Assembly (NCBI GenBank): GCA_018896645.1
Contig: JAHIMF010000087.1
Coordinates: 1-52,438, forward strand
Length of the DNA: 52,438 bases
DNA from: Patescibacteria group bacterium
GTDB lineage: Bacteria > Patescibacteriota > Patescibacteriia > UBA2591 > JABMQE01
Direction: 5' to 3'
Shown piece after piece: positions 35,356-38,548 of the stretch; the first letter of the stretch is position 1, and each line of letters opens with the position of its first letter. The notes beneath the pieces are model-generated. The model was not told the DNA's origin and did no database searches. It was given only the letters and a program-made list of their open reading frames with translations. Position numbers and translations under genes: made by a program.

Positions 35356-36756
35356 TTACCCCCTTACACGTTTCCGAAGAACAACGAACGGCGTCTTAAA
35401 TAAAATCTGCAAATCTAGTTTCAAACTCCAATTTTCAATATAATAAGTGTCTAATTTTACCTCGTCTTCAAAGTCCAAATCGCTCCGCCCCGAAATCTGC
35501 GCCAAACCGGTAATGCCCGGCTTCAAAGTTAGAACTTTTTTATGGCGCTTTTGATATTTTTCCACTTCTTCCGGCTCATGCGGCCGCGGGCCGACCAAAC
35601 TCATAGTTCCAATAAGCGAACAGAAAAAATTAGGCAACTCGTCAATTGATGTCTTGCGGATAAACTTTCCAACTCGCGTAATACGAGGATCATTCTTGAA
35701 TTTCATCATTGGAGTGCCATCACGCATATTTTCTTGTTCTTTTAAAAACTCCTCGTCAAACCTCAGTTTATGAGCATTCTTTGTCATTGAACGAAATTTA
35801 ATAAAAGTAAACGGCTTGCCTTGCTCGCCGATTCGGCTGTAAGTAAAAAATATCGGCCCCCGGCTATCAAGCTTAATCGCGATTGCCGCAATAATCATAA
35901 CCGGAGAAAGTAAAATTATAAAAAAAAGCGAACCAAAAATATCAAAAATACGCTTTACTACCCGCCCCCAACCATCAAGCGGAGTTCTCTTTATCTCAAT
36001 CACTGGAATACTATTCATCATCGTAATATCAACATTTATAGTCCTGGCGTTAAAAATATCAGCCGCATATTTATAAGTGATATGAAGTTCATTGCAAATA
36101 TCAAGAAGCTTTAAAGATTCTCTTCGCGAGATATTAGGATCAGCCAAAATTACTTCGTCAACCTCTTTGTCCATATTTCCAATTTTGTCTCGAACTGATT
36201 CATTCAGCTCCTCAAAAAATTTTACAATTTTAAAACCAAGCGATAAATTATTTTCTATCTCAAAAATAATATTTTTAGTTGTTTTGTCATTACCAATAAC
36301 CACCACTCTTTTTATTCCATATCCCCTTTTAACAAAATATTGTTGGATTTTCCGCATAATAAATCTGCCAATGCTCACATATAAAATTGCCAAAATCCAA
36401 GCCGCCAAAACAATAAAACGCGAATCAAAAAGTTCGCGCTTAAAAAACACTAAAAAAGTTATCAAGGCCAAACCCGCGCTGCAACCCACAAAAATCTTAG
36501 AAAATTCATCAATAAACTTTCGCCTTACTCCAATCGTATAAAGCCCCGTCAAAGCAAAAATCCCCACCCAAAAAATTCCCACCCCTAAAATAGTCGCAAA
36601 ATAACCGTTAAATGGCAAGTCAAAAACAATCTCTCTAATATTCTCCTGATAAAACTTTGAATAACGCAAAAAATACGCTGACATTCCTGCCAGCAAAATC
36701 ATAATATAGTCCAAGGGGACAAGGACCACTGAAAATGTGAGTTCTGACTTTTTCAT
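35356..36756 (-). CDS. Polyprenyl-phosphate sugar-1-phosphate transferase (WcaJ/WbaP type)
   Basis: 466 aa. Four N-terminal spans, a soluble nucleotide-binding-like domain (VVVIGNDKTTKNIIFEIE, about 150-240), a re-entrant hydrophobic helix (IFDIFGSLFFIILLSPVMIIAAIAIKL) and the catalytic bacterial-sugar-transferase domain: KFRSM, 'RKTSIDELPNFFCSLIGTMSLVGPRPHEP', 'LKPGITGLAQISGRSDLDFEDEV'. It links the first sugar phosphate to undecaprenyl phosphate, starting glycan synthesis that the nearby GT4 enzymes extend. No SD. Confidence 0.94.
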   Translation of the reverse strand: MKKSELTFSVVLVPLDYIMILLAGMSAYFLRYSKFYQENIREIVFDLPFNGYFATILGVGIFWVGIFALTGLYTIGVRRKFIDEFSKIFVGCSAGLALITFLVFFKRELFDSRFIVLAAWILAILYVSIGRFIMRKIQQYFVKRGYGIKRVVVIGNDKTTKNIIFEIENNLSLGFKIVKFFEELNESVRDKIGNMDKEVDEVILADPNISRRESLKLLDICNELHITYKYAADIFNARTINVDITMMNSIPVIEIKRTPLDGWGRVVKRIFDIFGSLFFIILLSPVMIIAAIAIKLDSRGPIFFTYSRIGEQGKPFTFIKFRSMTKNAHKLRFDEEFLKEQENMRDGTPMMKFKNDPRITRVGKFIRKTSIDELPNFFCSLIGTMSLVGPRPHEPEEVEKYQKRHKKVLTLKPGITGLAQISGRSDLDFEDEVKLDTYYIENWSLKLDLQILFKTPFVVLRKRVRG

Positions 36757-36771
36757 AGATATAATGCTAAT

Positions 36772-36843
36772 CTACGAATGAAATGCAAATCTACGAATTG
36801 CGAATCATATTTGCGGCATTCGTGTATATTTGTAGATTTGCAT
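36772..36843. repeat. Inverted-repeat element, 'CAAATCTACGAATG' family, copy 2
   Basis: ATGCAAATCTAC (36783-36794) is complementary to 36832-36843; the centre has 'tttgcggcattcg' as in copy 1 at 19081-19191, and another 'aatctacgaatg' precedes it. Confidence 0.72.
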
Positions 36844-36927
36844 TTTGACTATAGATCTGGATTATGTCTAAATCTTAACGAATTTTAGAGCCTTTGTAAA
36901 GCTCTTATCGCCCAAAAAAACATAAAA

Positions 36928-36945
36928 CCGAGGTTAAGGCCTCGG
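36928..36945 (-). terminator. Terminator of rnpB
   Basis: CCGAGG-CCTTAA-CCTCGG on the minus strand followed by TTTTATGTTTTTTT. Confidence 0.85.
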
Positions 36946-37294
36946 ATTTATGATAATGCCCAAGCAAGCAATAAGCCGGATTCTGTTTTAAACGGTCATC
37001 TATCTAGACCTGATGTTGCCATCAGATTCTAACGGCCTACCAATTTTGGCCTTTCACCCGAGCAGAAGTTTACCCCGCCTGAATGTCACCATTCAAACGC
37101 GTGAGCTCTTACCTCACGATTTCACCTTTGCCTCGCATAATACAAGGTAGTTTGTTTCTGTTGCACTGGTCCTGGGCTTCAATTAAATAAAAACTCTCTA
37201 GAGATGTCTTTACTCAACCTACTCCCGGTCCGTGTTACGGACTGCTCTTTTACCAACACATAAATTATGTGCTGGTGAGTGTCCGGACTTTCCT

Positions 37295-37605
37295 CCCCCC
37301 ACCACTTTTACCGTCTATAGCTCAACACTATTCACAATTCTTTTACGTAATTCCTTATAACCATTCTTAAAATGTTTTAGTCTCCTTTCTCTAATCAATG
37401 CATCCTTTTTACTTTTATAAGCTTCATAATATACAAGTTCTAATGGCAACCAATTTCGAGTGGACTTTACTTGTCCCGTCTTATGTTCTAATATCCGCCT
37501 CTTCAAATTTTCCGTAAAACCTATATAAAACTTACCTACTTTGATGCTTTTTAAAACATAAACATAGAACATGCATAGTGTATAAAAAGTAAAAGTGGTG
37601 GGGGG
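37295..37605 (-). mobile_element. 311-bp inverted-repeat element with GIY-YIG ORF inside rnpB
   Basis: 17-bp perfect terminal arms, CCCCCCACCACTTTTAC and complement, enclose 277 bp of which 258 bp are the ORF. The arms double as rnpB helix P3. No target duplication is visible. A short relative without ORF lies at 25866-25936. Whether the arms belong to a mobile element or to P3 itself is unresolved. Confidence 0.6.
37315..37572 (-). CDS. GIY-YIG nuclease-like protein encoded in the rnpB P3 loop
   Basis: 85 aa, single-domain GIY-YIG (UPF0213/YhbQ-like). 'FYVYVLKSIKVGKFYIGFTENLKRRILEH' gives the two motif tyrosines (YVYVL, FYIGF) and catalytic Arg; Glu at 'RERRLKHFKNGYKELRKRI' supplies the metal ligand. 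Such small nucleases resemble the catalytic half of homing endonucleases. No SD precedes ATG 37572; it can only be read from the RNase P transcript or from a cryptic promoter. All catalytic positions look intact. Confidence 0.9.
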   Translation of the reverse strand: MFYVYVLKSIKVGKFYIGFTENLKRRILEHKTGQVKSTRNWLPLELVYYEAYKSKKDALIRERRLKHFKNGYKELRKRIVNSVEL

Positions 37606-37633
37606 CGACCATCTTGCTTACTTGAGCCTTATT

Positions 37634-37662
37634 ATCATAGCGCAAATTACTAAAAAAGTCAA
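37634..37662 (-). promoter_or_regulatory. Promoter of rnpB
   Basis: TTGACT (37662-37657), 17 bp, TATGAT (37639-37634); the start point would be about 37627, the first base of P1. Confidence 0.85.
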
Positions 37663-37666
37663 GAAC

Positions 37667-37987
37667 TCAAGGTTTCAACTTCTTCTTACTATTCACCGCT
37701 TTCAAATATCCGCCCCAGCCAAAATCAAGAAAGTACTTAACATTTTTTATATTGTCATATCCAACTTTGAGTTTTGACTTAATATCTTCATATGTGCAAT
37801 CATTCAACAACATTTTAGCAATCTGTAATCTTCGAGCAATCATCACTTCTTCACTCTCGGTTAAAAGGTCTTTTAAAAAATTATAAATTTCTTTTGGACT
37901 TTCTAATTTAAAAAGAATGGCGCTTAGCTCATTTAATAACGCATCTCGATGTTTTTTAGAAAGGTTGTTTGGGTCATATTTAGCCAT
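37667..37987 (-). CDS. TrpR/YerC-like DNA-binding protein
   Basis: 106 aa from ATG 37987 (MAKYDPNNLSKKHRDALLNEL), seven bases after AAGGAGA. 'LLTESEEVMIARRLQIAKMLLNDCTYEDIKSKLKVGYDNIKNVKYFL' matches the YerC/TrpR-like helix-turn-helix family. A 34-bp perfect palindrome lies between the likely promoter region and the SD, suitable as an autoregulatory operator. Target genes unknown. Confidence 0.85.
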   Translation of the reverse strand: MAKYDPNNLSKKHRDALLNELSAILFKLESPKEIYNFLKDLLTESEEVMIARRLQIAKMLLNDCTYEDIKSKLKVGYDNIKNVKYFLDFGWGGYLKAVNSKKKLKP

Positions 37988-38006
37988 AAAAAATTCTCCT
38001 TGTTGC

Positions 38007-38040
38007 ACTCCTATATTCCGATATATCGGAATATAGGAGT
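38007..38040. promoter_or_regulatory. 34-bp perfect palindrome, candidate operator of the TrpR-like gene
   Basis: ACTCCTATATTCCGATA joined to its exact reverse complement, 20 bp upstream of the start codon. No T-tract follows in the gene's direction, so an operator is more likely than a terminator. Confidence 0.6.
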
Positions 38041-38083
38041 AAAATTATTTTTTTAAAAAATTATCAAAATTACCAAACAAAAT

Positions 38084-38548
38084 CTATCCTGCCTTCCTAT
38101 CCAACTCCTCATTAACCAACCTATCCGCTTCCTTGTTCTTACTCCTGGGCACATGAATAAAACTCACCCTCCCAATCCCCTGCCGCAAATTCCAAATCTT
38201 TAAAAACCACTTGCCTAATTCTTGATTTTTAACTTTATATTTTTGGTTTAGCTGATTAACAATCAACTCACTGTCTGAATAAATTTCAATCTCCGAAGGC
38301 CCTGTCGCGGACCTCGAGTCAGACCGAGAGGAATTGTGTTGAATGGCGCTATCCTTAAGTTCCTTGGCTTTTTGCATAGCAAAATCAACCGCTTGATATT
38401 CTGCCTGATTATTTGTTGTCTCACCAATATATTTTGAATATTCACCAATTTTCTTGCCACCTTCATCATAAATAACAACACCATAAGCAGCTGGACCAGG
38501 GTTACCCCTTGCTCCGCCGTCGGTATAAATTTTTAGTTTTTTTGGCAT
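38084..38548 (-). CDS. Ribonuclease H-like protein
   Basis: 154 aa. YTDGGARGNPGPAAYG (Asp1), NNQAEYQAV (Glu), 'YSDSELIVNQL' (Asp2) and 'HVPRSKNKEADRLVNEEL' (Asp3) give the complete RNase HI active site. It degrades RNA in RNA-DNA hybrids. Residues about 66-84 (DSAIQHNSSRSDSRSATGPS) are a repeat-derived insert just before the second Asp strand, absent from relatives. Confidence 0.93.
   Translation of the reverse strand: MPKKLKIYTDGGARGNPGPAAYGVVIYDEGGKKIGEYSKYIGETTNNQAEYQAVDFAMQKAKELKDSAIQHNSSRSDSRSATGPSEIEIYSDSELIVNQLNQKYKVKNQELGKWFLKIWNLRQGIGRVSFIHVPRSKNKEADRLVNEELDRKAG

Follow-up and report, generated by a model that had tools for sequence, protein, structure and literature searches.

A GIY-YIG nuclease gene enclosed by the P3 stem of a patescibacterial RNase P RNA: a probable palindromic element

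The window analysed here is a 52,438-nt stretch of Patescibacteria DNA. On its minus strand, the gene for RNase P RNA (rnpB) carries a complete GIY-YIG nuclease ORF inside helix P3. The locus raises the question of how a protein-coding gene comes to sit in an essential structural RNA, and how that RNA keeps its fold around it.

Anatomy of the rnpB locus

The Rfam model RF00010 matched the core of the gene at 36957–37318 on the minus strand (143.6 bits, E 3e-44, cut-off 100), and the gene is a complete bacterial class A RNase P RNA gene. The alignment begins only at 37318 and wrongly takes the ORF tail as P1–P3; the true 5′ strands lie upstream of the ORF. Forcing the ORF tail into P1 in this way hides the insertion. 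P1 (14 bp) and P2 (6 bp) close around the insertion (Table 1). P3 consists of 17 perfect pairs, extends imperfectly to 37581 (25 nt at 88%) and holds a loop of 277 nt. An MFE fold of the whole 716-nt transcript formed P1 and P3 around the ORF. The first-pass annotation, made from the letters alone, had described P1, P2, the conserved core and a perfect 17-bp P3 whose loop contains an intact 85-codon GIY-YIG ORF in the same direction. The covariance model, the coordinates and a Pfam match to GIY-YIG (PF01541, 51.3 bits, cut-off 22.6) agree with that description.

Table 1. Features of the rnpB locus, in window coordinates.
Feature	Position	Strand	Details
rnpB promoter, TTGACT-17 nt-TATGAT	37634–37662	−	Consensus scan; sigma-70-like, 10/12 matches
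P1 5′ strand	37614–37627	−	14 pairs, including G-U, with 36958–36971
P2 5′ strand, ATGGTC	37607–37612	−	Pairs with GACCGT, 36992–36997 (6 bp)
P3 5′ arm (left inverted repeat), CCCCCCACCACTTTTAC	37589–37605	−	Perfect 17-bp complement of 37295–37311
GIY-YIG nuclease ORF inside P3 loop	37315–37572	−	85 codons; Pfam PF01541 match
P3 3′ arm (right inverted repeat), GTAAAAGTGGTGGGGGG	37295–37311	−	Perfect 17-bp pairing with 37589–37605; adjoins universal core AGGAAAGTCC
Class A core, AGGAAAGTCC (37294) ... ACAGAATCCGGCTTA, then P1 3′ strand	36957–37294	−	RF00010
Hairpin ACCAGCACATAA/TTTATGTGTTGGT	37252–37276	−	Resembles Balneolota P3 stems (CCAGCACATAA)
Intrinsic rnpB terminator	36928–36945	−	

The promoter is also present in the sister genome G001. 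No group I or group II intron was found around the ORF: the window has no intron family match, and the ORF flanks form P3 itself. The hairpin at 37252–37276 is possibly an ORF-less copy of another stem type, as its resemblance to Balneolota stems at most suggests. The window's genome (96% complete) has a single rnpB; a second, intact copy, which would have spoken against the first description, was absent from it. No further copy of the element was found in that genome, and its copy number there is one. Because this is the only rnpB of the genome, its RNA is presumed to be catalytically active with the insert.

An RNase HI gene lies upstream of rnpB in the window (37667–38548), with a Trp-repressor-like ORF between. 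Read by eye, an RNase HI gene is directly upstream of rnpB in G001 (L212), G005 (L213) and G034 (L211), and the rnhA–rnpB neighbourhood is conserved among these three genomes and the window. An imperfect 43-nt inverted repeat (74%) is found at 36756–36870, between rnpB and a sugar-transferase gene. The genome bin encodes two full-length RNase III genes (G000:C79 and G000:C23), by duplication or contamination.

The nuclease and its recurrence in RNase P RNAs

Catalytic residues Y5, Y16, R26 and E62 are invariant across 35 rnpB homologues, and the AlphaFold (AF2) model of the 85-aa protein has a pLDDT of 93.7. By fold and sequence, the protein is nearest to UPF0213 and to SLX1, a branched-DNA nuclease, then to I-TevI and UvrC. 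Among homologue pairs with unsaturated dS, dN/dS was 0.03 to 0.23, with synonymous change far exceeding non-synonymous change. These ratios indicate that the homologues are under strong purifying selection, which leads us to regard the ORF as encoding a working protein. Of 145 genomes sampled from the phylum, 96 encode members of the family, with up to 12 members per genome. A phage origin was considered and rejected: tblastn of the protein against 50,697 phage records gave no match, and the eight viral-contig matches to the search pattern described below contain no RNase P RNA.

About 85,000 genomes were scanned with a pattern that joins the GIY-YIG signature to the rnpB core at a distance of 171–231 nt and requires sense orientation and the P3 position. 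The scan matched 74 stretches. In 36 of them the ORF lies between P3-pairing arms beside the rnpB core, which with the window makes 37 rnpB genes. Two further P3 carriers were recognised later (L084 and L096) and one was found by protein search (L121). Together, the pattern scan and protein searches bring the number of RNase P RNAs whose P3 contains a GIY-YIG ORF to about 40. Stem length is 16–30 bp in every carrier except L082, where the contig ends within the flank. The ORFs are mostly of 80–88 codons; L050, L063 and L079 run on without a stop or clear start. Hosts named in the records are Falkow-, Saccharibacteria, Doudna-, Moranii-, Lipton-, Yanofsky-, Berkel- and Kazan bacteria, other Parcubacteria, and Balneolota. 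Every carrier checked has one rnpB.

Within the window's own class, 3 of 286 sampled genomes match the pattern, a lower bound because decayed or displaced copies escape it. The pattern is sense-only and P3-only, so the excess of sense copies in P3 is partly ascertainment. In the ORF tree, the rnpB ORFs need several separate entries, and a single rnpB-specific ORF clade was ruled out by the several changes that the tree needs. In the relatives G016, G018, G020, G022, G030, G036 and G046, neither Rfam nor the core motif detected an RNase P RNA; rnpB may have been missed there for other reasons. A search of the open-access literature found no report of an ORF inside a bacterial RNase P RNA.

Recurrence in about 40 independent genomes makes the arrangement neither chance nor a chimera, the latter raised at first pass as an objection. 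An artefact of assembly or binning is scarcely credible: the bin has an estimated contamination of 3.6% and holds two RNase III genes, but the same anatomy occurs in about 40 independent assemblies, several of them with a single rnpB.

The stem, its ORF and their sites

Similarity of the P3 stem followed similarity of the ORF among 32 carriers (Mantel r 0.55; 0.52 given the rnpB core), and the correlation of stem with core similarity was 0.14 given the ORF. The rnpB core of Doudnabacterium L108 is nearest to that of L105, and its ORF and stem are nearest to those of Parcubacterium L052; the stem and ORF of L105 match those of Doudnabacterium L065. Several stem types occur within one phylum. 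Of 512 P3 cells, 505 are paired, and compensating pairs of many types occur. These counts are somewhat inflated, as the stem helices were picked for best pairing, although the outer end is fixed by the core. Because the stem tracks the ORF and not rnpB, the long P3 stem is taken to be part of the element and not the host's own helix.

Comparison of close relatives gives the same-genus pair G107 and G078, in which promoter, P1, P2 and core align. P3 is empty of an ORF in G078 and has been swapped for stem and ORF in G107; the two also differ by two further hairpins. G001, from the window's sister genus, has a conserved promoter and P1, with an unrelated, ORF-free hairpin as its P3. No target-site duplication was evident in the G107/G078 comparison or in flanks read by eye.

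The ORF is not confined to the sense strand of P3. It is antisense within P3 in L138 (G413). In L186 (G362) the ORF, which contains one TGA, lies in P12, and the same stem forms two hairpins that lack an ORF elsewhere in that RNA. This in-frame TGA would read as glycine under genetic code 25, and L186 is either decayed or from a recoded lineage. In L213 (G005, of the window's order) the ORF lies near the rnpB 3′ end and has one in-frame stop; it is enclosed by a hairpin of 25 bp that lies between P2 and the last conserved motif, and the P3 of G005 is an ORF-less stem of the same type. Decay is seen as well, with L201 a decayed copy and the P3 ORF frameshifted in G250. L152 (G358) is a stem-enclosed GIY-YIG ORF inside 23S rRNA near the 3′ end, at about model position 2820. 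The stem of L152 resembles Saccharibacterial P3 stems.

A protein search supplied a sample of 50 family members, of which three lie in rnpB and one in 23S rRNA. Strong flanking inverted repeats were found in 44% of the 50 versus 5% of 193 control ORFs; clear stems are absent from the other 56%. Common ends outside rnpB are (A)CCCCGTTAGA...TCTAACGGGGT, CCCGCACC... and CCAGGTAGTG..., which resemble P3 in being C-rich at the outer end. The P3 stem CCCCGTGAGATAA and its ORFs nest within intergenic relatives with stem CCCCGTTAGAGATA, the joining forks being modestly supported. In L134 (G314), a stem-enclosed GIY-YIG ORF runs in frame into seemingly prepilin-type sequence and has long outer inverted repeats. 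The two other small GIY-YIG genes of the window's genome have no significant stems and were ruled out as stem elements.

Copies of the stem also occur without the ORF. Of 36 carriers, 12 have a repeat of at least 10 nt of their own P3 stem at another place in their rnpB; in the control with stems of unrelated carriers, recurrence was seen in 10 of 1072 comparisons (0.9%). L101 has a second perfect palindrome of the same 16–17 nt. At the G107 locus, L104, the carrier's own stem recurs in two more hairpins, and G107 has one more stem copy outside rnpB. No ORF-less repeat of the window's own P3 stem was found. Dispersed ORF-less perfect palindromes of the form CCCGTTAGA...TCTAACGGG number nine in G381 and five in G388. 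They form a REP-like family, in genomes that have GIY-YIG genes of similar stem type. Gene conversion or template switching could also produce ORF-less stem copies, with no part played by the nuclease.

These comparisons show a hairpin element whose inverted repeats act as an RNA helix and which, as a stem–ORF unit, has changed hosts and sites in the course of evolution; the nuclease would have driven that movement. A site-specific homing endonuclease is an unlikely agent. It would cut ORF-less rnpB at P3 beside AGGAAAGTCC, repair would copy the ORF in, and P3 would be merely a tolerated site. Consistent with this are the shared site in about 40 rnpB genes, which adjoins a motif conserved universally, the patchy distribution (3 of 286 genomes of the class) and the cross-phylum spread, but the P3 recurrence is partly a product of the search pattern. 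Homing at P3 also fits poorly with ORFs in P12, near the rnpB 3′ end and in 23S rRNA, with stems common to intergenic relatives, with ORF-less stem copies in other helices and with the antisense copy.

A domesticated host gene is a very improbable alternative. In that case the nuclease would serve RNase P, tRNA or DNA repair and be kept in rnpB for co-expression, as strong purifying selection and the shared rnpB promoter would allow; its distribution is rare and patchy even within a genus, antisense and decayed copies exist, and several stem types occur in one phylum.

Several views in the first-pass annotation change with these results. There is good support for a parasite-like P3 insertion that spares the core, but homing directed at P3 of rnpB is too narrow a reading, since relatives lie in P12, near the rnpB 3′ end, in 23S rRNA and in intergenic DNA, and one is antisense. 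For the same reason, use of the rnpB promoter to drive the nuclease cannot be essential. The helix had been seen as a host P3 with an oversized loop; the stem instead comes with the element and tracks the ORF rather than rnpB. Nor is the ORF a one-off, as about 40 P3 carriers are known from many Patescibacteria lineages and Balneolota. The other first-pass suggestion, a processed bifunctional transcript, may still apply. The suggested comparison of sister genomes found P3 both with the ORF (G107) and without it (G078, G001).

A proposed element and known systems

We consider it likely that the locus is a selfish, intron-less palindromic element, composed of an inverted-repeat stem and an SLX1/UPF0213-like nuclease, that sits in rnpB without splicing. 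In this reading one small UPF0213/SLX1-like GIY-YIG gene is flanked by terminal inverted repeats, which form a stem whose outer ends are C-rich, and the whole has taken the place of the usual P3 hairpin in rnpB. The inverted repeats fold as the P3 helix, with the nuclease message as the 277-nt terminal loop. As the ends of the element become an RNA helix, no splicing would be needed for the RNase P RNA to keep its core fold. The rnpB transcript probably serves as the message for the nuclease, which probably cuts DNA at palindromic, branched or hairpin structures. The nuclease would help the palindrome to be copied into other hairpins, whether or not the ORF goes with it. The loop may be kept, or nicked by RNase III, while the RNA works; RNase III is encoded, so nicking as in rRNA intervening sequences is possible.

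An intervening sequence with a fragmented product is a substantial though tentative possibility, and is compatible with the palindromic element as its RNA side. RNase III would cut the stem to give a two-piece RNase P RNA and a released nuclease message. The stem length suits RNase III substrates and the genome has an RNase III gene, but the window's 17 perfect pairs are near the lower substrate limit of RNase III, and fragmentation leaves the spread unexplained. A precedent is the 23S intervening sequence (IVS) of Coxiella burnetii, which has an S23p ORF, a 28-bp inverted-repeat stem and RNase III cleavage (PMC4990558).

A broader proposal, on which we are evenly divided, is that the palindromic element represents an undescribed class of mobile element. 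In this class a GIY-YIG nuclease would mobilise palindromic hairpins and colonise many helices of essential structural RNAs, and ORF-less satellite hairpins would reshape RNase P RNA across Patescibacteria and Balneolota. The rnpB element is grouped here with intervening-sequence-like insertions; a class of its own depends on nuclease-driven movement. With protein-coding parasites nested repeatedly and in more than one helix, an essential RNA has been invaded without introns. Some of the unusual length and structure of patescibacterial RNase P RNAs, whose genes go undetected by models in some genomes, may be due to the element. UPF0213/SLX1-like nucleases are a widespread family whose role is poorly known, and the stem as substrate with the 85-aa enzyme provides a concrete test of hairpin-directed movement by such a nuclease.

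Two known systems come closest, the intervening sequences of rRNA and the intron-less insertions with GIY-YIG ORFs that occur in CPR rRNA genes. Like the 23S IVS, the rnpB element has an ORF in a hairpin closed by terminal inverted repeats, occupies a peripheral helix of an essential RNA and involves no self-splicing intron. Stem-forming terminal inverted repeats are shared with rRNA-type intervening sequences; the host gene of the window is rnpB rather than 23S. Unlike the 23S IVS, the window protein is GIY-YIG rather than S23p, the host is RNase P RNA, RNase III cutting is a possibility, and the rnpB element family includes ORF-less stem copies and intergenic relatives.

For CPR rRNA genes, the passages drawn on here from a 2024 study place all GIY-YIG proteins in intron-unlike insertions, where they are sparse and apparently outside homing, and most insertions at the top or base of stem-loops (PMC11270868). 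The window's rnpB shares with these cases a GIY-YIG ORF in a structural RNA gene, in the same bacteria and in an intron-unlike insertion. The same passages contain no RNase P, inverted-repeat stems, ORF-less copies or intergenic relatives, and the element structure is proposed here. CPR genomes have diverged RNase P RNAs with unusual helix extensions, in which no ORF or GIY-YIG was reported (PMC8172020). The window rnpB is like them in its unusual helix extension and unlike them in the ORF inside it.

The catalytic fold is shared with I-TevI, a GIY-YIG homing endonuclease of a group I intron. Unlike I-TevI, the 85-aa protein has no intron at its locus and no separate DNA-binding domain, and its sequence is closer to UPF0213 and SLX1. 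REP palindromes are dispersed in the genome, and the related RAYT, a Y1 tyrosine transposase, is a single-gene copy enclosed by the same palindrome. REPs are not known to serve as RNase P RNA helices. As with REP/RAYT, ORF-less palindrome copies occur in the element family (within rnpB in 12 of 36 carriers, and nine plus five dispersed; none of the window's own stem). Unlike RAYT, the protein enclosed here is a GIY-YIG nuclease and not a Y1 transposase.
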